Positions 21,984-32,639 of a stretch of DNA of 64,000 nt are shown here, piece by piece. How positions within the stretch are numbered: the stretch's first letter is position 1; each line of letters starts with the position of its first letter. Both the position numbers and the translations under genes were made by a program. The DNA is from Betaproteobacteria bacterium RIFCSPLOWO2_12_FULL_68_20 (GTDB lineage: Bacteria; Pseudomonadota; Gammaproteobacteria; Burkholderiales; SG8-39): NCBI GenBank assembly GCA_001770655.1, contig MERQ01000106.1, positions 1-64,000 on the forward strand, read 5' to 3'. The notes beneath the pieces are model-generated. The model did not search any database. It was not told the DNA's origin and worked only from the letters and a program-made list of their open reading frames with translations.

Positions 21984-22265
21984 ATGATTCATTTCGTCGT
22001 GCACGAGAAAGGCGACGGCGTCGGCGTCGTCGTGGTCGAGGGCGTGAAGTCCGGCCAGGAGATCTCGGGCTGGATCATGGAGGACGACAAGGACCTGAAG
22101 GTGCTCGCGAGGAACGACATCCCGATCGGCCACAAGCTCGCGCTCAGGGACTACGCGGCGGGCGACACGGTGATCAAGTACGGCGTGGACATCGGAAAGG
22201 TGGTCGCGCCAATCAAGACGGGCGAGCACGTGCACATTCACAATCTCAAGACCAAGCGGTGGTAG
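21984..22265 (+). CDS. suyA: UxaA-family small subunit (SAF domain), SuyA-like
   Basis: A 93-residue stand-alone SAF domain, corresponding to the N-terminal part of altronate dehydratase UxaA and to the alpha subunit of (R)-sulfolactate sulfo-lyase. The motifs [40 protein letters not shown] and [12 protein letters not shown] are typical. It partners with the large subunit two bases downstream. GGAAG precedes the ATG by 6 bases, and a TACAAT box lies at 21951-21956. Substrate assignment is uncertain: split UxaA pairs also act on sugar acids. Confidence 0.7.
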
Positions 22266-22267
22266 GA

Positions 22268-23437
22268 ATGGACCTCTCGAAAGCGGGCTTCTGGGGCTAC
22301 CGGCGCGAAAACGGCCGCGTCGGCGTGCGCAACCACGTCGCCATCCTGCCGGTGGACGACCTCTCGAACGCCGCCGCGCAGGCGGTCGAGAACAACATCA
22401 AGGGCACGATGGCGCTGCCGCATCCCTACGGGCGGCTGCAGTTCGGCGCCGACCTGGATCTTCACTTCCGGTCGCTGATCGGCGCGGGCTCCAACCCGAA
22501 CGTCGCCGCGGTGGTGGTGATCGGCATCGAGGACACCTGGGCGAAGCGGGTCGCCGACGGCATCGCCGCGACCGGCAAGCCCGTGTCGTTCTTCGGCATC
22601 GAGCTGCACGGCGATCACGAGACGATCAAGCGCGCCTCGAAGGCGGCGAAGGAATACATGCAATGGTCCTCCGAGCTGCGGCGCGAGGAGCGGCCCCTCA
22701 AGGACCTGTGGGTGTCCACCAAGTGCGGCGAGTCCGACACCACCTCGGGGCTCGGCGCGAACCCCACGGTGGGCAACGTCTTCGACAAGCTCTACCCGCA
22801 CGGCGTGACGCTCGTTTTCGGCGAGACCACCGAGCTCACGGGCGGCGAGCACCTGGTCGCCGCGCGCTGCCGCAACGACGAGGTCAGGAAGAAGTTCCAG
22901 TTCGTCTTCGACCGCTACCAGCAGGTGATCGAGCGCCACAAGACGAGCGACCTCATGGACTCGCAGCCGACCAAGGGCAACATCGCCGGCGGCCTCACTA
23001 CCATCGAGGAAAAGGCGCTCGGCAACATCCAGAAGATCGGCAGGAAATGCCTGGTGGACGGCGTGCTCGACAAGGCCGAGACCCCGACCGGGCCGGGCCT
23101 GTGGTTCATGGACTCGTCTTCCGCCGCAGCCGAGATGGTGACGCTGTGCGCGGCGAGCGGGTTCGTGGTGCACCTTTTTCCCACCGGGCAGTGCAACGTG
23201 ATCGGCAATCCGATCCTGCCGGTGATCAAGCTCTCGGCCAACCCGCGCACCGTGCGCACGATGGCCGAGCACATCGACGTCGACGTATCCGGCCTGCTGA
23301 GGAAGGAGCTCACTCCCGACCAGGCGGGCGACAGGCTGCTCGAATGCATGTTCCGTACTGCGAACGGCCGGCTCACCGCGGCGGAAGCGCTCGGGCACCG
23401 CGAGTTCGTGCTCACGCGCTTGTACGAGAGCGCCTGA
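22268..23437 (+). CDS. suyB: UxaA-family large subunit, SuyB-like lyase
   Basis: A 389-residue catalytic subunit of a split UxaA-type enzyme. The motifs [74 protein letters not shown] and [13 protein letters not shown] match what I recall of the beta subunit of sulfolactate sulfo-lyase, which splits 3-sulfolactate to pyruvate and sulfite. Altronate-type dehydration remains possible. The conserved cysteines suggest an iron cofactor. The ATG at 22268 is preferred over GTG at 22259. It is the second gene of the catabolic cluster. Confidence 0.7.
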
Positions 23438-23471
23438 ACGGTATCATCCCGGTATATCGCCGGAGAGCACT

Positions 23472-23693
23472 ATGGATATCCGCAAAATCGTTCACTCCGA
23501 CCCCGAAATCCTCGGCGGCGTGCTTGTGTTCGTCGGCACCCGCGTCCCTGTGAAGACGCTGTACGACTACCTCGAAGCGGGGGATTCGCTCGACGAGTTC
23601 CTGGACGACTTTCCGGGTGTGACGCGCGAGCAGGCCGTCGCTGCGCTCGAGCTGGGACGGGAGATGACCGAGGCGCATGCGGCTGCTGCTTGA
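23472..23693 (+). CDS. DUF433-family antitoxin
   Basis: A 73-residue protein with the DUF433 pattern: VHSDPEILGGVLVFVGTRVPVKTLYDYLEAGDSLDEFLDDFPGVTREQ, a winged-helix-like antitoxin fold. It is paired with a DUF5615 PIN-like protein whose start lies 17 bases inside this gene. GGAGAG precedes the ATG. The pair is inserted in the catabolic cluster, 34 bases after the SuyB-like gene. Such pairs are usually classed as VapBC-like toxin-antitoxin systems. Confidence 0.8.
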   Translation: MDIRKIVHSDPEILGGVLVFVGTRVPVKTLYDYLEAGDSLDEFLDDFPGVTREQAVAALELGREMTEAHAAAA

Positions 23694-24006
23694 CGAATGC
23701 GTGCCCCGAAAGCTGAAGCAGGATCTGGTGGGGCACGATGTCAGCACGGCGCGCGAGATGGGGTGGTCGGGCAAGCGGAATGGAGAGCTGCTCGCCGTGA
23801 TGCGCCAGCAGCGCTTCGAAGCATTCGTCACCGTCGATCAAAACGTCGAGTTCCAGCAGAACGTGAGGGCCTCCGGCATCGCCGTCATCGTCATCGCTGC
23901 GCGCACTAACCGGCTGAAGGAGCTGCGCCCGCTCGTGCCGGCCGTCCTGCGGACGCTATCGGCCATAAAGCCCGGAGAGCTCCAGCGCGTGAGCGGCCCG
24001 CATTGA
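23677..24006 (+). CDS. DUF5615 PIN-like toxin
   Basis: A 109-residue protein with LLLDECVPRKLKQDL and, later, AFVTVDQNVEFQQN, the two acidic motifs of the DUF5615/Mut7-C-like PIN domain. Members are presumed ribonucleases held in check by DUF433 antitoxins. It overlaps the antitoxin gene by 17 bases. Its stop codon overlaps the TTG start of the following iron-sulfur subunit gene (TTGA), so the toxin is directly coupled to a metabolic gene, which is unusual. Confidence 0.8.
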   Translation: MRLLLDECVPRKLKQDLVGHDVSTAREMGWSGKRNGELLAVMRQQRFEAFVTVDQNVEFQQNVRASGIAVIVIAARTNRLKELRPLVPAVLRTLSAIKPGELQRVSGPH

Positions 24007-24722
24007 CCGATCGCGCACTGAAAGCGCGCGTCTGGCGGGGCGCAGCCGAGGGAGCGTTTCGGGAGTACGAGGTCCCGCGGCACGCCAGCCAGACCGTGCT
24101 GGACGTCGTGACTCACATCCAGCGTGTGCTCGATCCGACGCTCGCCTACCGCTACGCCTGCCGCGTCGGCATGTGCGGCTCATGCGCCATGACGGTGAAC
24201 GGCGTACCGCGCTGGACCTGCCGCACGCACGTGGACAAGGCGGCGAAGAACGATCGGATCGAGATCGCGCCGCTCAAGAACCTCCCGGTGATCCGCGACC
24301 TGGTGACCGACATGCGCGAGTTCTTCGACAAGTGGGCGCGCGCGAAGGGTCGCTTCGAGGGGAACCGGACGAAGAAGGACGATTTTGCCCGGGTCCGCCC
24401 GGAATCGGCGGCGCGCATGCAGGCTGACGCGGGGATCGAGTGCATCGGCTGCGGCGTGTGCTACGGCGCCTGCGATGTGGTGTCCTGGAACCGCGACTAC
24501 CTCGGCCCGGCCGCGCTCAACCGCGCCTGGACTCTGGTCATGGACGCACGCGCAACCGGGCGCGCGGAACGTCTGCGCGCCGTGGCGGGCGACGCGGGCT
24601 GCCACGCCTGCCACACGCACATGAGCTGCACCGAGCGCTGCCCCAAGAACCTGTCCCCGACCGCGGGGATCGCGGGCCTGAAGCGCGCGGTCGCGAAGGC
24701 CGCGTTGCGCGGCGAGCTGTGA
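24003..24722 (+). CDS. Succinate dehydrogenase/fumarate reductase-like iron-sulfur subunit
   Basis: A 239-residue SdhB/FrdB-type protein carrying electrons between flavoprotein and membrane anchor. The [2Fe-2S] ligands are in YACRVGMCGSCAM and TC (Cys53, 58, 61, 73). The [4Fe-4S] and third-cluster ligands are in CIGCGVCYGACD and CHACHTHMSCTERCPK. The start is TTG at 24003, overlapping the toxin stop; no ATG or GTG is available before the first cluster. Anchors follow directly; the flavoprotein is 4.4 kb downstream. Differences from the housekeeping SDH context suggest a specialised dicarboxylate oxidoreductase. Confidence 0.85.
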   Translation: MTDRALKARVWRGAAEGAFREYEVPRHASQTVLDVVTHIQRVLDPTLAYRYACRVGMCGSCAMTVNGVPRWTCRTHVDKAAKNDRIEIAPLKNLPVIRDLVTDMREFFDKWARAKGRFEGNRTKKDDFARVRPESAARMQADAGIECIGCGVCYGACDVVSWNRDYLGPAALNRAWTLVMDARATGRAERLRAVAGDAGCHACHTHMSCTERCPKNLSPTAGIAGLKRAVAKAALRGEL

Positions 24723-25057
24723 GCGCGAGGACGGAAACCATTCTTTGGATCGCGCAGCGCGCGAGCGCGGCGCTGCTCGCCGCCTGCGTGCTTGTGCACC
24801 TCGCCACCGTGATCTACGCGGTGCAGGGCGGGCTCAGCGCCGCCGAGATCCTCGGCCGTACCCGCGGCAACGGCGCCTGGTTCGCGTTCTATTCCGTCTT
24901 CGTGCTTTCGGCCGCGCTGCATGCGCCGATCGGCCTGAGGAGCGTGTTTTCCGAATGGTTCGGGTGGCGCGGCGCCTCGCGCGACATCGCGCTGGCGCTA
25001 TTCGCCATGTTCATCGCCTGGATGGGCATGCGCGCGGTGATCGCGGTCTTCGCATGA
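24719..25057 (+). CDS. FrdC/SdhC-like membrane anchor subunit
   Basis: A 112-residue membrane protein with three hydrophobic segments (about residues 8-32, 50-72, 88-110). Histidines in HLATVIYA and LHAPIGLRS could ligate heme b. It has the layout of a fumarate-reductase/SDH cytochrome b subunit. The GTG start overlaps the stop of the iron-sulfur subunit (GTGA), and its own end overlaps the next anchor (ATGA). Confidence 0.75.
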   Translation: MSARTETILWIAQRASAALLAACVLVHLATVIYAVQGGLSAAEILGRTRGNGAWFAFYSVFVLSAALHAPIGLRSVFSEWFGWRGASRDIALALFAMFIAWMGMRAVIAVFA

Positions 25058-25383
25058 CGAACAACCACCCCGCGTACTGGGCTTTTCTGGTGCACCGCGT
25101 CTCTGGAATCGCGCTCGCGCTGTTCCTTCCCGTGCACTTCTGGGCGCTCGGCCAGGCGCTCGAGGGCGCCGCGCGGCTCGACGCGTTCCTCGCCTGGACC
25201 GAGCAGCCGCTCGTCAAGTTCGCGGAATGGAGCCTGGTGCTGCTCCTCGCCGCGCATCTCGCCGGCGGGCTGCGCGTCCTGGCGCTGGAATTCCTGCCTT
25301 GGCGCGACTGGCAGAAGACGCTCGCAGCCATCGCGGCCGCGGTCTCGCTCGCCGTAGGCTTGGCATTCGCGCTGGCGCTGTAG
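25054..25383 (+). CDS. FrdD/SdhD-like membrane anchor subunit
   Basis: A 109-residue protein with three predicted transmembrane helices. The N-terminal YWAFLVHRVSGIALALFLPVH is the typical SdhC/D entry helix with HRxSG, a conserved quinone/heme-site motif, and the second helix carries AAHLAGGLR. With 24719-25057 it should anchor the iron-sulfur and flavoprotein subunits and pass electrons to quinone. It is coupled to the preceding gene by a 4-base overlap. Confidence 0.75.
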   Translation: MTNNHPAYWAFLVHRVSGIALALFLPVHFWALGQALEGAARLDAFLAWTEQPLVKFAEWSLVLLLAAHLAGGLRVLALEFLPWRDWQKTLAAIAAAVSLAVGLAFALAL

Positions 25384-25419
25384 TTAAATGGACGCGCAAG
25401 TCATTCAGAGGAGAACGAA

Positions 25420-26382
25420 ATGAAGCTCGGATCCTTCCTGTCGCTTGCCCTCGGCATGCTGGTGGCGGCGTCGGCGTCGGCGCAGGGCTGGCCGAGCAAG
25501 CCGGTGAGGTTCATCGTGCCCTTCGCACCGGGCGGCGCGACCGACATCTCGGCGCGGCTGCTGGGCGAGAGGCTCACGCAGGCGTGGGGCCAGACGGTGA
25601 TCATCGAGAACCGCAGCGGCGCGGCGGGAGGGGTCGGGGCGGCCGAGGCCGCGCGAGCGAGCCCCGACGGCTACACGCTGTTCTTCCCCTCCGGCTCGGT
25701 GATGACGGCGAACCAGCACGTCTACGCCAAGCTCAACTACAACCCGGAGAGGGATTTTGTCCCGGTGACGAACGTCGTTACCGGTCCGCAGGTGCTCGCG
25801 GTGCCGGCGAATTCTCCGTTCAAGACGGTCGCGGACTTGATTGCGGCCGCAAAAAAGGATCCCGGCAAGCTGACATTCGGGCACGCCGGGATTGGCTCGC
25901 AGACTCACTTGGCGGGGGAGAATTTCCTGTACCAGGCCAAGATCAACGCGGTAGCGGTCCCGTACAAGGGGGAAGGTCCCGCGCTCGCCTCCTTGGTGGG
26001 CGGCGAGACCTCCTTTGCCATGACCAACCTCGCCGCGACGATCAGCCATATCAACGCCGGGCGGCTGCGCGCGCTCGGAGTGACCAGCAAGGATCCGGCG
26101 CCGCAGCTCCCGGGCGTGCCGCCGATCGGCAGGACGGTGAAAGGCTTCGAGAACTACGGCTGGTTCGGCATCGTGGCGCCGACCGGAACGCCCGCGGCGA
26201 TCGTGCAGAAGGTGTACCAGGACACGAAGAAGGCGCTCGACTCGACCGAGCTGAAGGCGCGCTTTTTCGCGCAAGGCCTCACACCAGTGGGCGACACTCC
26301 CGAGCACATGGGCAAGGCGATGAAGGCCGAAAGCGAGCTGTGGGCGAGAGTGGTGAACGAACGCAAGATCCAGGTGAAGTGA
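25420..26382 (+). CDS. Bug-family tripartite tricarboxylate transporter receptor
   Basis: A 320-residue periplasmic solute-binding protein with signal peptide MKLGSFLSLALGMLVAASASAQ. The family signature is WPSKPVRFIVPFAPGGATDISARLLGERL, then SGAAGGVGAAEAARASPDGYTLFF. Bug proteins bind carboxylates (citrate, succinate-like compounds, aromatic acids). No TctA/TctB permease genes are nearby, which is common for betaproteobacterial Bug receptors. Its position between the FRD-like and fumarase-like genes suggests that it captures the carboxylate this cluster degrades. GAGAACG lies before the ATG. Confidence 0.88.
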   Translation: MKLGSFLSLALGMLVAASASAQGWPSKPVRFIVPFAPGGATDISARLLGERLTQAWGQTVIIENRSGAAGGVGAAEAARASPDGYTLFFPSGSVMTANQHVYAKLNYNPERDFVPVTNVVTGPQVLAVPANSPFKTVADLIAAAKKDPGKLTFGHAGIGSQTHLAGENFLYQAKINAVAVPYKGEGPALASLVGGETSFAMTNLAATISHINAGRLRALGVTSKDPAPQLPGVPPIGRTVKGFENYGWFGIVAPTGTPAAIVQKVYQDTKKALDSTELKARFFAQGLTPVGDTPEHMGKAMKAESELWARVVNERKIQVK

Positions 26383-26386
26383 TCGG

Positions 26387-27262
26387 TTGAAAATCGAACC
26401 CAAGCAGATCGAGGAGGCGGCGAAAGAGCTCTACATCCGGGCGCTCAAGCTGCTTCCGCCCGACGTGAAGCAGGGCTTCGACGCGCTCGCGAAGAGCGAG
26501 TCCGATGCCGGGGCGAAGCGCATGCTCGGCACCATGATCGCGAACATCAGGGTCGCCGAGGACACCGACAACCTGCTGTGCCAGGACACCGGCATCCCGA
26601 TCTACAACGTCTGGATCGGGCGCGGCGTCGAGGTGGACGGCGTGGCGATGAAGGAGGCGATCCGGCGCGGCTGCGCGCGCGCCACGCGCGAGCACTCGTT
26701 CCGCTCCTCGATCGTGCATCCGACCACGCGCGTGAACGAGCAGACCTCCACCGGCCGCGGCGTGCCGGTGATCCACGTGGACTTCACCGACGAGCCCGAG
26801 ACGCTCGCGATCGAGATGGTGCCGAAAGGCTCCGGCTCCGAGAACAACTCGTGGCTGAGGATGGCGGTGCCGGCCGAGGGCGTCGAGGCGATCAAGACCT
26901 TCGTGGTGGACTGCGTGCTCGAGGCGGGCGGCAAGACCTGCCCGCCGACCATCGTCGGGGTCGGGGTGGGCGGCACCGCGGACCTGTGCGTGCACCTCGC
27001 CAAGACGGCCGCCACGCGGCCGCTCGGCACGCGCTGCGACGATCCCGAGGGCGCGAAGCTGGAGCAGGAGCTCTCGCAGGCGGTCAACATGCTCGGCGTC
27101 GGGCCGCAGGGCCTCGGCGGCGACTCGACCGCGTTCGCGGTGCACGTCGAGACGGCGGCTACCCACATCACCATGAATCCGGTGGCCGTGAACATGCAAT
27201 GCCACTCGGCGCGCCGGGCGCGCGCCACCCTCACGCCGAAAGGCCTCGCATATGGTTTCTAG
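26387..27262 (+). CDS. Class I fumarase / L-tartrate dehydratase-like alpha subunit
   Basis: A 291-residue subunit of an oxygen-sensitive [4Fe-4S] hydro-lyase (FumA N-terminal/TtdA family). Likely cluster cysteines are in LLCQDTGIP, GGKTCPPTIVGVGVGGTADLC and NMQCHSARRARA. It would add or remove water on a fumarate-like compound together with the beta subunit at 27829-28437. The start is TTG at 26387, immediately after the Bug gene. The cluster places it with an FRD-like complex, consistent with a dehydrogenase-then-hydratase sequence. Confidence 0.85.
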   Translation: MKIEPKQIEEAAKELYIRALKLLPPDVKQGFDALAKSESDAGAKRMLGTMIANIRVAEDTDNLLCQDTGIPIYNVWIGRGVEVDGVAMKEAIRRGCARATREHSFRSSIVHPTTRVNEQTSTGRGVPVIHVDFTDEPETLAIEMVPKGSGSENNSWLRMAVPAEGVEAIKTFVVDCVLEAGGKTCPPTIVGVGVGGTADLCVHLAKTAATRPLGTRCDDPEGAKLEQELSQAVNMLGVGPQGLGGDSTAFAVHVETAATHITMNPVAVNMQCHSARRARATLTPKGLAYGF

Positions 27263-27824
27263 GATTTTCCTGATCGCGGCCTTGCTCCTCGCCATGCCGC
27301 TCCAGGCAGCCGAAGTGGCCGGCGTGAAGATCGACGAGCGCGCGCGCGTCGGCGATTCCGACCTGGTGCTGAACGGCGCCGGGCTGCGCAAGCGCGTGTT
27401 CTTCCAGGTCTACGCCATGGGCCTGTATCTTGCCGAGAAGAAGCCCGCCGCAGCCGACGCGATCGCGCTCGCCGGCCCGAAGCGCGTGGCGATCCACATG
27501 CTGCGCGACGTCGATGCCGCCACCTTTACCGACGCGCTGGTCGAAGGCATGCGGCCGAACCACGACGAAGCGACCATGAAGACGCTCGAGCCGCGCATCG
27601 CCGAGCTCGCCGCGATCATGGCGCAGCTGAAGGAGGCGAAGTCGGGAATGCAGATCCTGCTCGACTGGCGGCCGGGGACCGGCACGATCATCAGCGTCGA
27701 CGGCAAACCGCGCGGCGGGCCGATCGGCGGCGAGGACTTCTACCGCGCGCTCCTCCGCGTCTGGCTCGGCGAGCGCCCGGTGCAGGACGACCTGAAGAAG
27801 GCGCTGCTCGGCGAGCCGCAATAG
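27252..27824 (+). CDS. Chalcone isomerase-like periplasmic protein
   Basis: A 190-residue protein with a signal peptide (MVSRIFLIAALLLAMPLQAAE) and the bacterial chalcone-isomerase-like pattern: GVKIDERARVGDSDLVLNGAGLRKRVFFQVYAMGLYLAEKK and later IHMLRDVDAATFTDALVEGM, with ILLDWRPGTGT and GEDFYRALLRVWLG near the end. Bacterial members are of unknown function and are not expected to act on flavonoids. It overlaps the alpha subunit gene by 11 bases and lies between the two hydro-lyase subunits, an odd place that suggests co-expression. Confidence 0.8.
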   Translation: MVSRIFLIAALLLAMPLQAAEVAGVKIDERARVGDSDLVLNGAGLRKRVFFQVYAMGLYLAEKKPAAADAIALAGPKRVAIHMLRDVDAATFTDALVEGMRPNHDEATMKTLEPRIAELAAIMAQLKEAKSGMQILLDWRPGTGTIISVDGKPRGGPIGGEDFYRALLRVWLGERPVQDDLKKALLGEPQ

Positions 27825-27828
27825 CGCG

Positions 27829-28437
27829 ATGGCTCACCACGAGCTCCGGCCGCCGATCAGCGAGGCGCAGGTGCGGCTGCTGCGCGTGAACGACACGGTC
27901 ACCCTGAACGGCACGCTTTACGGCATCCGCGACGCGACGCAAATCCACATGTTCGACCGCGGACGCAAGACGCGATTCGATCTTTCCGGGCACGCGGTGA
28001 TCCACACCGCGCCGAACGTGAGGCGGGTCGAAAAAAGCGCCGCGCACCCGGCCGGATACGCGCCGGTGTGCATCGGCACCACGACCAGCGACCGCATGGA
28101 GCGCTTCACGCTGCCGCTCATGCGCGAATACGGCGTGCGCCTCGTCATCGGCAAGGGCGGGCTGCGCGATGCCTCGGCGGCGGCCTTTCGCGAGCTGGGC
28201 GGCGCCTATGTCGCGATCATCGGCGGCACCGCGGCGCTCGAGACCACCTGGGTCGAGGCGATCGAGGACGTGGACCTGGACGATCTCAATCCCGAGTCGC
28301 TGTGGAGGTTCCGGGTCAAGGGCTTCGGGCCGCTGCTCGTCGCCATGGACAGCCACGGCGCGAGCCTCTACGCCGAGGTGAAATCCGCCGCCCGGGCGCG
28401 CCGGGCCGCGGCGCTCGCGCGCCTGGGCGTCCGGTAG
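27829..28437 (+). CDS. Class I fumarase / tartrate dehydratase-like beta subunit
   Basis: A 202-residue FumA C-terminal/TtdB-family subunit. Motifs include LRPPISEAQVRLLRVNDTVTLNGTLYGIRDA, CIGTTTSDRME, IGKGGLRD and YVAIIGGTAALETTWVEAI, which form the substrate-binding swivelling domain. It pairs with 26387-27262. The ATG starts four bases after the chalcone-isomerase-like stop. Specific substrate (fumarate, tartrate, mesaconate or a substituted fumarate) cannot be read from the sequence. Confidence 0.85.
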   Translation: MAHHELRPPISEAQVRLLRVNDTVTLNGTLYGIRDATQIHMFDRGRKTRFDLSGHAVIHTAPNVRRVEKSAAHPAGYAPVCIGTTTSDRMERFTLPLMREYGVRLVIGKGGLRDASAAAFRELGGAYVAIIGGTAALETTWVEAIEDVDLDDLNPESLWRFRVKGFGPLLVAMDSHGASLYAEVKSAARARRAAALARLGVR

Positions 28438-28457
28438 AAACCGCGCTTCCGGGCGAT

Positions 28458-28477
28458 TGACTCATGTATATGAGTCA
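28458..28477. promoter_or_regulatory. Perfect inverted repeat upstream of second vapBC, likely operator
   Basis: Arms TGACTCAT (28458-28465) and ATGAGTCA (28470-28477) are perfect and separated by GTAT. The site ends 14 bases before the antitoxin start, where a VapB-type autorepressor is expected to bind. Confidence 0.55.
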
Positions 28478-28491
28478 TCTAGCATACTGAT

Positions 28492-28749
28492 ATGAGCAAA
28501 AGGCTCCAGGTGCTGCTGGAGGAGTCCGAGATGCGCGAGCTGCGCCGCTTGGCGCGGCGCTCGAACACCACCGTGGCAGAGTGGGTGCGCCGGGCGCTCC
28601 GCGCTGCGCGGCGCAGCGAGCCTTCGCGCGACGCGGACCGCAAGCTCGCAGCCGTGCGCGCCGCCGCCAAGCACTCGTTCCCGAGCGGGGATATCGACCG
28701 GATGCTCGCCGAGATCGAGCGCGGCTACGGCTCGAGCGTCGGCACTTGA
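28492..28749 (+). CDS. Ribbon-helix-helix antitoxin (VapB-like)
   Basis: An 85-residue protein. The N-terminus [37 protein letters not shown] is a ribbon-helix-helix/CopG-like DNA-binding domain. The C-terminal part, [18 protein letters not shown], is a typical toxin-neutralising tail. It overlaps the toxin gene by 4 bases (TTGA). The 8-base-arm palindrome just upstream is the likely autoregulatory site. It is the second toxin-antitoxin module inside the catabolic cluster. Confidence 0.8.
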
Positions 28750-29141
28750 TATTCGTCGATTCCAACGTGCCGATGTATCTGGTCGGCGCGGACCATCCGA
28801 ACAAGGTGGCCGCGCAGCGTCTGCTCGAGCGCGCGATCGCGCAGGGCGAGAGGCTGGTCACCGACGTCGAGGTCCTGCAGGAGATACTGCATCGCTATGT
28901 CGCGATCGCGAGACGAGATGCGGTCCAGCCGGCGTTCGACGCCCTGCTGAACGCAGTGGACGAGGTTTTCGCGATCGAGCTGCGCGACGTGGAAAAGGCG
29001 AAAGACCTGCTGCAAGGGTCGCCCGGCCTTTCGGCGCGCGATGCGATTCACGTCGCCCTGATGGAGCGCAACGACGTGTCCGACATCCTGACTTTCGACG
29101 CCGGCTTCGATCAGGTACCGGGCATTCGCCGTGTGCTCTAG
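28746..29141 (+). CDS. PIN-domain ribonuclease toxin (VapC-like)
   Basis: A 131-residue PIN protein with [12 protein letters not shown] (first Asp), [13 protein letters not shown] (Glu), [14 protein letters not shown] and [16 protein letters not shown] (final Asp pair). The start is TTG at 28746, which overlaps the antitoxin stop and restores the usual N-terminus. It is expected to cleave structured RNA when released. The flavoprotein gene follows after nine bases in the same direction. Confidence 0.82.
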
Positions 29142-29150
29142 GCAAAGCTG

Positions 29151-30875
29151 GTGCGCGAGCTGTCCACCGACATCCTGATCCTTGGCTCCGGCGGAGCGGG
29201 GCTCTTCGCCGCGCTGCACGCGCACCAGGCCGCGCCGGAGCTCTCGATCGCGGTCGCCGTGAAGGGCCTGCTCGGAAAATGCGGCTGCACGCGCATGGTC
29301 CAGGGCGGCTACAACGTCGCGCTCGCGAAGGGCGATTCGGTCGAGCGCCACTTCATGGACACGATCGAGGGCGGCAAGTGGCTGCCGGACCAGGAGCTGG
29401 CGTGGAAGCTGGTCACGCTCGCGATCGAGAGAATTCACGAGCTCGAGAACGAGCTGGGCTGCTTCTTCGACCGAAATCCCGACGGCACCATTCACCAGAA
29501 AGCGTTCGCCGGGCAAACGTTCGACCGCACGGTGCACAAGGGCGATCTCACCGGCATCGAGATCATGAACCGGCTCGCCGAGCAGGTGTGGGCGAGGAAC
29601 ATCGCGCGCCTGGAGGAGCACCGCGCGGTCGAGCTCGTCAAGACGACTTCGGGCGAGGCGCTTGCCGGCGTGCTCATGATCGACATGCGCACGGGCGAAT
29701 ACGTCTTCGCGCGCGCGAAGGCCGTGCTGCTCGCCACCGGCGGCGGCCCGACCATGTACCGCTACCACACGCCATCGGGGGACAAGAGCTGCGACGGGCT
29801 GGCGATGGCGCTGCGCGCGGGGCTGCGGCTCCGCGACATGGAGATGGTGCAGTTCCATCCGACCGGTCTGCTCGCGGGCGAGCACACGCGCATGACCGGC
29901 ACGGTGCTCGAGGAAGGCCTGCGCGGCTCGGGCGGGTATTTGCTGAACGGTGCGAAGGAGCGATTCATGCATCGGTATGACCCGAGGCTCGAGCGCGCCA
30001 CGCGCGACGTGGTCTCGCGCGCGATGTTCGGCGAGATGCGCGCCGGGAGCATCTCCCCGAACGGCGGGCTCTACATCGCGATGGCGCACCTCGGGCCGGA
30101 CAGGGTGAGAAAGGAATTCAAGGGCATGGTCGAGCGCTGCGCCGATTGCGGCTTCGATCTCGCCGGCGGGCTGGTCGAGGTGGTGCCGACCGCGCACTAC
30201 ATGATGGGGGGAGTCGAATTCGCCGCCGATTGCTCGACGGAGCTGGCGGGGCTGTTCGTCGCTGGCGAAGACTCGGGCGGGGTGCACGGCGCGAACCGCC
30301 TCGGCGGCAACGGCGTCGCCAACTCCACCGTGTTCGGCGCAGTTGCTGGCGACTGCATGGCCGGATGGGTGAGAAAGGAGGGCTCCTACCGAGACCCCGA
30401 CCGCGGTCAGATCGACGCCGCGGTCGCGCGCTGCGACCGGCCGTTCAGGAAGGGCCTGCGCGGCGGGAGCCCGGAATCCCTGCGCGAGAAGCTCTACGAC
30501 ACGATGTGGGACAAGGTCGGCATCATGCGCGACGCGGCGGCGCTTGAGGCCGCGGAGCAGGAGCTGGCGCGGATCGACGTGGAGCTCGACGATCTCGCGC
30601 TCGCCGATTCGAGCCGGGCGTTCAATCTCACCTGGCACGACTGGCTGAACCTGAAAAGCCTCACGGCGGTGAGCCGCGCCATCTGCGCGGCGGCGATCGG
30701 GCGTACGGACTCGCGCGGGGCGCACTTCCGTTCCGACCATCCCGAGCCCGGAGCGCTCGAGCACTCGACGTACACCAGCGTGCGCCAGGCGGGCGAGCGC
30801 ATCGAGGTGGCGATGAAGCCGGTCGCCTTCACGCGCGTGCGGCCGGGCGAGACGCTGCTCAAGGATGCCGCCTAG
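29151..30875 (+). CDS. Fumarate reductase/succinate dehydrogenase-like flavoprotein subunit
   Basis: A 574-residue FAD protein. The N-terminal dinucleotide-binding motif is ILILGSGGAGLFAALHA. Other family blocks are MVQGGYN, VLLATGGG, MEMVQFHPTGLLAGEH, EEGLRGSGGYLLNGAKERFM, PTAHYMMGGVEF and LFVAGEDSGGVHGANRLGGNGVANSTVFGA. The GTG start at 29151 directly precedes the FAD motif. It should partner with the B, C and D subunits at 24003-25383, separated from them by the receptor, hydro-lyase and toxin genes. Separation and sequence differences from housekeeping SdhA suggest a modified dicarboxylate substrate. Its end overlaps the next gene by 11 bases. Confidence 0.85.
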   Translation: MRELSTDILILGSGGAGLFAALHAHQAAPELSIAVAVKGLLGKCGCTRMVQGGYNVALAKGDSVERHFMDTIEGGKWLPDQELAWKLVTLAIERIHELENELGCFFDRNPDGTIHQKAFAGQTFDRTVHKGDLTGIEIMNRLAEQVWARNIARLEEHRAVELVKTTSGEALAGVLMIDMRTGEYVFARAKAVLLATGGGPTMYRYHTPSGDKSCDGLAMALRAGLRLRDMEMVQFHPTGLLAGEHTRMTGTVLEEGLRGSGGYLLNGAKERFMHRYDPRLERATRDVVSRAMFGEMRAGSISPNGGLYIAMAHLGPDRVRKEFKGMVERCADCGFDLAGGLVEVVPTAHYMMGGVEFAADCSTELAGLFVAGEDSGGVHGANRLGGNGVANSTVFGAVAGDCMAGWVRKEGSYRDPDRGQIDAAVARCDRPFRKGLRGGSPESLREKLYDTMWDKVGIMRDAAALEAAEQELARIDVELDDLALADSSRAFNLTWHDWLNLKSLTAVSRAICAAAIGRTDSRGAHFRSDHPEPGALEHSTYTSVRQAGERIEVAMKPVAFTRVRPGETLLKDAA

Positions 30876-31395
30876 CAACTGGCCGGACGAGATTCACCGC
30901 GTGCTCGCGGCGCAGCGCGTGCGCATCGTCGGCTACGTGCCGGACGCAGGCCACAAGCGGCTGATCGAGCTGTGCCATGCGGATGCAGGGATTCGCGCAG
31001 TGCCGCTCACCACCGAGGAAGAGGGCATCGGTCTCGCCGCCGGCGCCTGGCTCGGCGGCGAGAAAACCGCGCTTCTCATGCAGTCGAGCGGCGTCGGCAA
31101 CCTGATCAACGTCCTCGGCACGGTGAAAACGTGCCGCTTTCCGCTCCTGATGATCGTCACGATGCGGGGCGAGCAGGGCGAGTTCAATCCCTGGCAGTTG
31201 CCGATGGGGCGGGCCACGGCGGCGGTGCTCGGCGCGATGGGCGTCTCCGTCGAAGCCGTGTCCTCGGCCTCCGAGGCCGCGTCGACCATCGAAACGGCTG
31301 TTCGGAAGGCGTTCGATGCCCAAGAGTCGATCGCGGTCCTGATCTCGCAGCGAATGATCGGCATCAAGAGCTTCGAGGAGCAGGCGAACCAGTGA
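30865..31395 (+). CDS. TPP-dependent decarboxylase alpha subunit (ComD/sulfopyruvate decarboxylase-like)
   Basis: A 176-residue protein corresponding to the N-terminal pyrimidine-binding domain of TPP enzymes. PLTTEEEGIGLAAGAWLGGEKTALLMQSSGVGNLINVLG carries the catalytic Glu and fits the two-subunit sulfopyruvate/phosphonopyruvate decarboxylase group. The beta subunit follows with a GTGA overlap. Full TPP enzymes carry both domains in one chain, so the split form is diagnostic of this group. The true 2-oxo acid substrate is unproven. Confidence 0.75.
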   Translation: MPPSNWPDEIHRVLAAQRVRIVGYVPDAGHKRLIELCHADAGIRAVPLTTEEEGIGLAAGAWLGGEKTALLMQSSGVGNLINVLGTVKTCRFPLLMIVTMRGEQGEFNPWQLPMGRATAAVLGAMGVSVEAVSSASEAASTIETAVRKAFDAQESIAVLISQRMIGIKSFEEQANQ

Positions 31396-31967
31396 GCGCG
31401 ACGCTGCACCGGCGCGAGGTGGTGAAGGCGCTCCTGGAAAATCGCGGCGGGCTGCTGGTGGTCGCCGGGCTGGGCTCGACCGCCTGGGACTGCACCGCGG
31501 CCGGCGATTCGGACCTCACGTTCCCGCTGTGGGGCGCGATGGGGCAGGCGGCGATGACCGGGCTCGGGCTCGCCCTGGCGCGCCCCGAGCGGCGCGTGCT
31601 CGTCGTCACCGGCGACGGCGAGATGCTGATGGGGCTCGGCTCGCTCGCCACGATCGGCGTGCAGAAGCCCGCCAACCTCACGGTGGTCGTGATCGACAAC
31701 GAGCGCTACGGCGAGACCGGCATGCAGGCGACGCATACCGCGCACGGCGTGGACCTTGCCGCCGTCGCGAAGGCTTGCGGATTCGGCGAATCGAGGACCA
31801 TCGTCAATTCGAGCCAGGTCGGCTCGCTGCGATCATTGATCCACGAGCGGCCCGGACCGCACTTTGCCGCGGTCAAGGTCCTCGCCGAAAGGCTGCCGCT
31901 CGTGCTCCCGCCGCACGACGGCGTGCACCTGAAAGATCGATTCCGCCGCGCCCTGCCCGGCGGCTAG
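31392..31967 (+). CDS. TPP-dependent decarboxylase beta subunit (ComE/sulfopyruvate decarboxylase-like)
   Basis: A 191-residue TPP-binding domain. The cofactor motif is GDGEMLMGLGSLATIGVQKPANLTVVVIDNERYGETG (GDG through N, about residues 75-110). GAMGQAAMTGLGLALARP precedes it. It pairs with 30865-31395 to decarboxylate a 2-oxo acid such as sulfopyruvate. The GTG start overlaps the alpha-subunit stop. It is the last gene of the cluster; the following gene is convergent. No sulfoacetaldehyde acetyltransferase or sulfolactate dehydrogenase gene is in the window. Confidence 0.75.
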   Translation: MSATLHRREVVKALLENRGGLLVVAGLGSTAWDCTAAGDSDLTFPLWGAMGQAAMTGLGLALARPERRVLVVTGDGEMLMGLGSLATIGVQKPANLTVVVIDNERYGETGMQATHTAHGVDLAAVAKACGFGESRTIVNSSQVGSLRSLIHERPGPHFAAVKVLAERLPLVLPPHDGVHLKDRFRRALPGG

Positions 31968-31970
31968 CGC

Positions 31971-32639
31971 TCAGCCGACGTGCTGCTTCAGGAACGCCAG
32001 CGTGCGTTCCCGGGCGAGCTTCGCGCTCGGCGCGTCGTAGGAGGCGCGCTGGTCGCAGTTGAAGCCGTGGTCCGCGGGGTAGATGTGCACGATCTGCTGC
32101 GGGTGCGCCGCGGCGAGCTTCTTTACGCCTTCGAGCGGGATCATGTGATCGCGCTCGCCGAAGTGCAGCATCGCGGGACACTTCGGCTGCTCGCCGATCG
32201 CCTCGTGCACGCCCCCGCCGTAGTAGGGCACCGAGGCGGCGAGCCCCGCGACTCGCGCCGCGGAGATCCAGGCCACGTAGCCGCCCCAGCAGTAGCCGAC
32301 GATCGCGACCTTGCCGCCTTCGGCGGCGGCCTTCACCGCGGCCTCGACGTCCTTCACCACGGTGTCGTTCGCCATCTTCGCTCGCAGCTCGCGTCCCTTC
32401 GCGATGTCGTCGGGCGAGTAGCCGAGGTCGACGTTCCTCTGCGCGCGGTCGAACAGCGCCGGCGCGATCGCGAGATAGCCGTCCTTCGCATAGCCGTCGG
32501 CGACCGACTTGATATGGCTGTTGACGCCGAAGATTTCCTGGATGACGACGATCCCGCCCCTGGGCTTGCCGGACGGATCGGCGCGATAGGCGCCGAGCTT
32601 GTGGCCGTCTGGAGCGGTGAGTTCGATCATCTTTCCCAT
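31971..32639 (-). CDS. Dienelactone hydrolase-family protein
   Basis: A 222-residue alpha/beta hydrolase. The nucleophile is the Cys in VGYCWGGY (family GxCxGG), with Asp in GERDHMIP and His in ADHGFNCD completing the triad. VVIQEIFGVN near the N-terminus forms the oxyanion region. Family members open dienelactones in chlorocatechol degradation, but many have broad esterase roles, so the substrate is open. It is cytoplasmic with no signal. GGAGGA precedes the ATG on the minus strand. It is convergent with the decarboxylase and divergent from xerD. Confidence 0.88.
   Translation of the reverse strand: MGKMIELTAPDGHKLGAYRADPSGKPRGGIVVIQEIFGVNSHIKSVADGYAKDGYLAIAPALFDRAQRNVDLGYSPDDIAKGRELRAKMANDTVVKDVEAAVKAAAEGGKVAIVGYCWGGYVAWISAARVAGLAASVPYYGGGVHEAIGEQPKCPAMLHFGERDHMIPLEGVKKLAAAHPQQIVHIYPADHGFNCDQRASYDAPSAKLARERTLAFLKQHVG

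Follow-up and report, generated by a model that had tools for sequence, protein, structure and literature searches.

What would a bacterium do with a second, divergent copy of two Krebs cycle enzymes placed beside a gene pair for sulfite release? The question is raised by a gene cluster at positions 21984-31967 of a 64,000-nucleotide stretch (hereafter the window) of contig MERQ01000106.1 from Betaproteobacteria bacterium RIFCSPLOWO2_12_FULL_68_20, whose genome is available as 3.48 Mb in 109 contigs. The cluster combines a lyase resembling SuyAB, a complex resembling succinate dehydrogenase (SDH) and fumarate reductase (FRD), and a two-subunit fumarase-like hydro-lyase (FumAB). We consider it moderately probable, judging from gene content and conservation, that the cluster encodes a Krebs-like route that would convert a C3 sulfonate to pyruvate and sulfite, 3-sulfopropionate (3-SP) being the most likely substrate. 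A first-pass annotation had already listed a catabolic gene set on a single strand at these coordinates; open reading frames (ORFs) and Pfam/NCBIfam models bear out every gene it named, all on the forward strand, and add five passenger genes that it did not list.

The FRD-like complex consists of an iron-sulfur subunit (FrdB, 24003-24722; Fer2_3), two SDH/FRD-type membrane anchors (24719-25057 and 25054-25383; both Sdh_cyt), the second joined to the first by an ATGA overlap, and a flavoprotein (FrdA, 29151-30875; FAD_binding_2 and Succ_DH_flav_C), the proposed catalytic subunit of a 3-SP dehydrogenase. FrdB is above the cut-off of TIGR00384 (195.6 bits vs. 88) and has 12 cysteines whose positions are sufficient for three clusters. 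The flavoprotein scored 422.9 bits with the SDH/FRD flavoprotein model TIGR01812, below the required 567.3. The genome also encodes its own SDH flavoprotein (above the equivalog cut-off, located between malate dehydrogenase, mdh, and citrate synthase, gltA, on contig C71), its own quinol fumarate reductase flavoprotein (contig C30, passing PRK09231), and a one-chain class I fumarase (contig C69, passing both TIGR00722 and TIGR00723). Because these sit on other contigs, the window cluster is not housekeeping, and we rejected the identification of its genes as the organism's only SDH and fumarase.

Phylogeny also separates the flavoprotein from housekeeping enzymes. A family of 106 sequences, window included, forms one clade in FastTree (support 0.999) that contains none of 20 housekeeping SdhA proteins and none of three paralogues from the source genome. 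In SDH and FRD a histidine covalently links the flavin (FAD), and the active site includes catalytic His and Arg residues and a Thr-Glu motif. All 105 aligned relatives (FrdA ORFs outside 540-640 amino acids were dropped) have a cysteine at the FAD-linking position, in the motif GCTRMVQGG; the SDH and FRD encoded elsewhere in the genome have their His beside the position that holds the family Cys. The Thr preceding the active-site Glu is likewise replaced by Glu in 105/105 (motif EEG[LI]RG). All 105 retain two His residues, the GANRLGG Arg and the second Glu; the other Arg is present in 104, the sole sequence lacking it being haloarchaeal. The complex resembles complex II in its four subunits, its Fe-S subunit and most catalytic His/Arg residues, but differs in a flavoprotein with these two replacements, a score below the subfamily cut-off, and only 35-36% identity with the SDH and FRD flavoproteins that the genome encodes elsewhere. 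By tree and residue pattern, the FRD-like flavoprotein is best described as a separate subfamily. Its hosts include Burkholderiales, Rhodobacteraceae, other Proteobacteria, Rhodococcus jostii RHA1 and two haloarchaea, and an FrdA-like gene was found in 39 of 300 Burkholderiales, 30 of 248 genomes of a Rhodobacteraceae-like family (the family of G614), and 11 of 398 phylum-drawn genomes. Four metagenome bins titled Bordetella parapertussis (L012, L030, L047, L049) also carry the cluster; that species label looks doubtful.

The alpha subunit of the fumarase-like enzyme (26387-27262; Fumerase, 294 bits) is well above the cut-off of TIGR00722 (280.1 bits vs. 100.65), and the beta subunit (27829-28437; Fumerase_C) falls just below that of TIGR00723 (137.9 vs. 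145.15). We call this form type A. The third component is a UxaA-type enzyme split into a small SAF-domain subunit (21984-22265; Pfam SAF 20.8 bits, cut-off 21, adjoining the large subunit here and also in relatives) and a large subunit (22268-23437; GD_AH_C, 282 bits), the arrangement of SuyA and SuyB. The large subunit, the only SuyB match in the source genome, is 79.8% identical to a SuyB-like protein adjoining hpsN and hpsO in the hps cluster for dihydroxypropanesulfonate (DHPS) of Cupriavidus pinatubonensis HN-2. That identity, and a galactarate dehydratase score of 138.5 bits where 730.85 are needed, led us to discard galactarate or altronate dehydratase as the identity of the pair. We annotate it as a putative sulfite-releasing (R)-sulfolactate lyase. 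According to a recent review (PMC12890257), SuyAB was identified in C. pinatubonensis.

The same genes occur together in other genomes. We kept 80 related loci from 587 FrdA relatives (66 of the 80 are among the 105 aligned sequences), and for neighborhood counts used the 76 of 121 loci in which FrdA is flanked by 7.5 kb or more on either side, with a distance limit of 10 kb. A fumarase alpha subunit (type A, or the type B described below) lies within that limit in 73 of the 76, and FrdB and the membrane anchors likewise recur, so the association is beyond chance.

The proposed chemistry follows from a structural analogy, 3-SP being succinate with one carboxylate replaced by the isosteric sulfonate. 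Membrane-bound FrdABCD would oxidize 3-SP to 3-sulfoacrylate and pass the electrons to quinone; type A FumAB would then hydrate this to 3-sulfolactate. If water is added as in malate formation, the product would be (R)-sulfolactate, as the geometry of L-malate is named (R) in sulfolactate under the Cahn-Ingold-Prelog rules, and SuyAB would cleave it to pyruvate and sulfite. This is the isomer that SuyAB uses, as stated in PMC11489063 and PMC12421959. The window supplies a candidate gene for each step; from the sequences we infer which substrate is used, which way the route runs, its stereochemistry and all of its reactions.

Support for a sulfonate substrate comes from genome-wide co-occurrence. 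Among the 300 Burkholderiales genomes, 39 contain FrdA, 51 contain SuyB and 38 contain both (Fisher p 8e-36; here and below p-values are descriptive only, related species not being independent); SuyB is present in 38/39 FrdA-bearing genomes vs. 13/261 others. In 30 of the 38 the two genes are on the same contig and no more than 17 kb apart, in one they are far apart, and in seven they are on separate contigs. Other labels recurring across the 80 loci are Ldh_2 (42), TauE (27), 2-hydroxyacid dehydrogenase (19), HpsN-like (6) and HpsO-like (6), tallied with no identity floor; these labels, like those of the 10 kb counts, derive in part from annotated plasmid-locus proteins, which match themselves. 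The families are those of sulfolactate and DHPS metabolism; for the one Ldh_2 enzyme tested, the best NCBIfam model was L-sulfolactate dehydrogenase, with a score below cut-off. As a control we searched the surroundings (approximately 20 kb each) of 20 housekeeping SdhA genes (20 of 55 matched genomes, same order), and found no SuyB, TauE, Ldh_2, 2-hydroxyacid dehydrogenase or HpsN/O, nor any YeiH or sulfite oxidase at the thresholds used. Eight of these 20 genomes carry an FrdA-like gene. Of the ten regions taken from genomes other than the source, five (G211, G098, G228, G138, G064) were chosen with knowledge of their SuyB status. By this gene linkage the FrdA subfamily is tied to sulfonate metabolism. 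Labels for an arylsulfatase family (11/80 loci, L012, L020, L036, L037 and L047 among them) and a TauD-like dioxygenase (7/80) were also seen.

The hydratase occurs in two forms. Relative to the window alpha subunit, type A sequences are mostly ~70-85% identical and type B sequences ~32-36%, and the respective alpha clades have support of 0.89 (window included) and 0.998. The window enzyme resembles class I fumarase and L(+)-tartrate dehydratase in being a two-subunit Fe-S hydro-lyase with its cysteines kept, but it belongs to its own clade; the KGxGSE loop, which type A and the class I fumarase of the source genome retain, is lost in the type B sister sequences shown. The 76 well-flanked loci comprise 42 of type A, 31 of type B and three with neither. 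SuyB lies within 10 kb of FrdA in 28 type A loci (a count one too low, as the annotated SuyB of L084 was missed) and in no type B locus (p 5e-10); Ldh_2 is similarly skewed (25/42 vs. 1/31), while TauE accompanies both forms (21/42 and 19/31). Conversely, YeiH-type exporters (7/31) and relatives of methylmalonate-semialdehyde dehydrogenase (3/31, p 0.07) were found near type B and near none of the 42 type A loci. These differences would fit a type B enzyme that hydrates sulfoacrylate at the sulfonated carbon, giving an unstable hydroxysulfonate that would fall apart into malonate semialdehyde and sulfite. The type B FrdA may have a different substrate, though its checked residues are identical to those of type A. 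An amidohydrolase-family gene lies 3' of type B FumB in 5/37 loci (e.g., L106:15601-16440, which has no NCBIfam match at 1e-10).

Individual type B loci contain further genes of this kind. In Pseudomonas sp. MPC6 (L101) type B FumB overlaps by one base with a CoA-acylating methylmalonate-semialdehyde dehydrogenase that exceeds the cut-off of its model, and a sulfite oxidase gene is found within the same 25.6 kb stretch as the cluster; a relative of the dehydrogenase lies within 10 kb in L099 and L167 (both type B). In Pseudorhizobium banfieldiae (L103) the cluster adjoins a tripartite ATP-independent periplasmic (TRAP) transporter, a succinate-semialdehyde dehydrogenase and a sulfolactaldehyde-reductase-like enzyme, the latter below its model cut-off; a cell growing on 3-hydroxypropanesulfonate or 3-sulfopropionaldehyde would require these additions. 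We count the type B semialdehyde dehydrogenases and the sulfolactaldehyde-reductase-like enzyme in favor of 3-SP as the substrate.

Two haloarchaeal plasmids encode FrdA, FrdB, SuyAB and TauE together with an argininosuccinate-lyase-family enzyme (L086:10203-11705 and L100:10275-11777, 70% identical to each other), and FumAB is not annotated within either plasmid stretch. The lyase-family enzyme is possibly a non-homologous hydratase. XcbC of bacterial coenzyme M biosynthesis is an argH-family enzyme tied to sulfoacrylate; the haloarchaeal protein belongs to the same superfamily but scored 260 bits with the XcbC model, for which 575 are needed. Taken together, these loci raise the possibility, which we advance tentatively and would not yet favor, of a widespread "sulfo-Krebs" module with two endings, in which type A supplies sulfolactate to SuyAB, type B FumAB, its active site remodelled, is a new kind of hydrolytic desulfonating enzyme that cleaves a carbon-sulfur bond, and in haloarchaea the hydratase has been replaced by the argininosuccinate-lyase-family enzyme.

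Our results support the first-pass annotation in its reading of a catabolic, non-housekeeping cluster, with successive action of the FRD-like complex and the fumarase-like enzyme and sulfite release by SuyAB. The outcomes that it named as refuting did not arise, since housekeeping SDH, FRD and fumarase are encoded elsewhere in the genome and the gene set is conserved in other genomes. Sulfosuccinate, the substrate that it listed first, fares less well. That compound would be oxidized to sulfofumarate, hydrated to 3-sulfomalate, and converted through sulfopyruvate to sulfolactate for SuyAB, or else hydrated at the sulfonated carbon to release oxaloacetate and sulfite. Such a pathway would employ the recurring Ldh_2, 2-hydroxyacid dehydrogenase and thiamine pyrophosphate (TPP)/ComDE-like genes, it would suit the tricarboxylate-type transporters nearby, and direct release of oxaloacetate would account for type B loci without SuyB. 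However, the sulfolactate branch needs an additional dehydrogenation and decarboxylation, and no sulfomalate dehydrogenase was recognized in the window cluster, whereas the SuyAB substrate (R)-sulfolactate follows directly from 3-SP by way of sulfoacrylate, for which reason we prefer 3-SP. The Ldh_2 and 2-hydroxyacid dehydrogenase genes are also explicable as the SlcC/ComC couple that racemizes sulfolactate, as outlined in PMC12421959, and sulfosuccinate leaves the semialdehyde dehydrogenases of L101, L167, L099 and L103 without an explanation. Searches of openly licensed PMC papers brought up no gene-level sulfosuccinate pathway, and we regard this substrate, though the chief rival to 3-SP, as unlikely. 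A module for some unrelated dicarboxylate (tartrate, methylsuccinate or tricarballylate) that merely neighbors sulfonate genes would agree with the alpha subunit passing general fumarase models and with the usual carboxylate ligands of Bug and tripartite tricarboxylate transporter receptors. It would leave unexplained why all but one of the FrdA-bearing Burkholderiales have SuyB, why TauE is near both hydratase forms and near 0/20 SdhA genes, and why the same linkage recurs on two haloarchaeal plasmids; moreover, a fumarate/tartrate cluster with a TauE homologue is raised on the sulfosugar sulfofucose in Paracoccus wurundjeri (cluster 3, MDP0926751-0926761; PMC12421959), and this may be a type B cluster. 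This explanation appears very unlikely to us, and tricarballylate and methyl-succinates, also named in the first-pass annotation, are disfavored by the sulfonate neighborhood.

The cluster might also run in reverse, with sulfolactate dehydrated and the resulting sulfoacrylate reduced to 3-SP as an electron sink, by analogy to the path from malate through fumarate to succinate. SDH requires the FAD-linking His for succinate oxidation, and its loss in all 105 aligned relatives would suit a reductase. Against this, the presence of TauE, sulfite oxidase and YeiH genes in the neighborhood points to release of sulfite, the tight linkage to SuyB would set two routes in competition for sulfolactate, and many of the hosts are presumably aerobes. 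A further point in its favor is that Enterococcus gilvus is known to form 3-SP, by another route (PMC11489063). We give the reductive direction very little credence.

Several observations weigh against oxidative breakdown of 3-SP as we propose it. No gene for making 3-SP (aminotransferase or aldehyde dehydrogenase) was recognized in the window cluster, and the missing FAD-His could, from what FRD mutants show, favor reduction. No TauE was recognized in the window either; three TauE-family genes over the cut-off occur elsewhere in the genome, and the family is present in all 14 control genomes. The link between FrdA and SuyB is weak in the Rhodobacteraceae-like family (n = 248), in which SuyB occurs in 44 genomes, namely 9/30 with FrdA and 35/218 without it (p 0.07), and in the nine genomes with both, the genes are on different contigs (eight) or ~0.5 Mb apart (one); we read this weak association as a reflection of the type B form. 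Tricarboxylate-type transporters beside type B loci (TctA in 14/37) would also suit a trianion, for instance sulfosuccinate. With the ordinary argH model, the haloarchaeal enzyme exceeds the cut-off (323 bits vs. 279.5). Since the distribution of hydratase types for the most part mirrors the FrdA tree, the contrast between types A and B rests on few independent changes: type B occupies two groups (31 tips, support 0.993; three tips, 0.669), for a minimum of two changes, or three when branches under 0.8 are collapsed. A reading with five type B groups, which would have meant that FrdA lineages often exchanged their hydratase, was an artefact of unlabelled tips and gave way, with fuller labels, to the two groups.

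Lastly, two TPP enzymes are without a role in the proposed route. One is the ComDE-like pair at the 3' end of the window cluster (ComD-like alpha, 30865-31395; ComE-like beta, 31392-31967), with 129.9 of the 147.95 bits required by TIGR03845 and 127.5 of the 221.5 required by TIGR03846. The pair is shared with only 3/80 relatives (L007, L008, L013), and a more distant version with 36-40% identity occurs in L170; we therefore rejected it as a core step and treat as a local accessory what the first-pass annotation had included in the pathway. The other is an acetolactate-synthase-like enzyme present in 22/80 loci (e.g., L012:2723-4408 and L088:7317-8918) and near both forms (20/42 type A, 9/31 type B).

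The remaining genes of the window cluster are a Bug/TctC periplasmic binding protein (25420-26382; TctC, 222 bits) and the five passengers recognized by Pfam. A DUF433/DUF5615 toxin-antitoxin-like pair (23472-24006) is inserted between SuyB and FrdB, its 3' end overlapping the FrdB start; a chalcone-isomerase-like gene (27252-27824; Chalcone_3, 166 bits), a label also found in 7/80 related loci, lies between the two fumarase subunit genes; and an RHH/PIN toxin-antitoxin-like pair (28492-29141) occupies the position of a TAXI-TRAP transporter in relatives L004, L006, L008, L010, L011, L013 and L171. The window operon has the Bug receptor only, vs. TAXI-TRAP in close relatives. The many short gene overlaps reported earlier are real, with five at 24003-24006, 24719-24722, 25054-25057, 30865-30875 and 31392-31395. 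A dienelactone-hydrolase-like gene follows on the opposite strand (31971-32639) and is also found downstream of FrdA in L005, L007-L011 and L013 (7/80 loci).

In the openly licensed papers searched, the chemistry itself is mentioned solely by way of a thesis. In PMC11489063, bacterial degradation of 3-SP is called previously unreported, and a thesis by J. Mayer is cited for its degradation by Roseovarius nubinhibens via sulfoacrylate and sulfolactate. Homotaurine and 3-SP metabolism in strain ISM of that species, as relayed there, has the same proposed chemistry; we found no gene assignment for it, nor any for 3-SP oxidation in openly licensed PMC papers. The same source names homotaurine and sulfoquinovose-derived DHPS, via gut Firmicutes, as origins of 3-SP, and a 2026 review (PMC12890257) calls the mechanism of 3-SP breakdown in Bilophila unclear. 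Relatives of the window cluster have SuyB, TauE-family and sulfolactate-dehydrogenase-like genes in common with the SuyAB/SlcC-ComC mineralization systems of Paracoccus, Chromohalobacter and Cupriavidus pinatubonensis, as these are described in PMC12421959 and PMC12890257; they differ in that an FRD-fumarase module would here be the source of sulfolactate, in place of DHPS, cysteate, sulfosugars or sulfolactate itself. The FrdA motifs GCTRMVQGG and EEG[LI]RG provide a marker to separate this cluster from the SDH and fumarase names it carries in databases, 3-SP breakdown gains concrete candidate genes, and cleavage of a C-S bond by a fumarase-like enzyme becomes testable.

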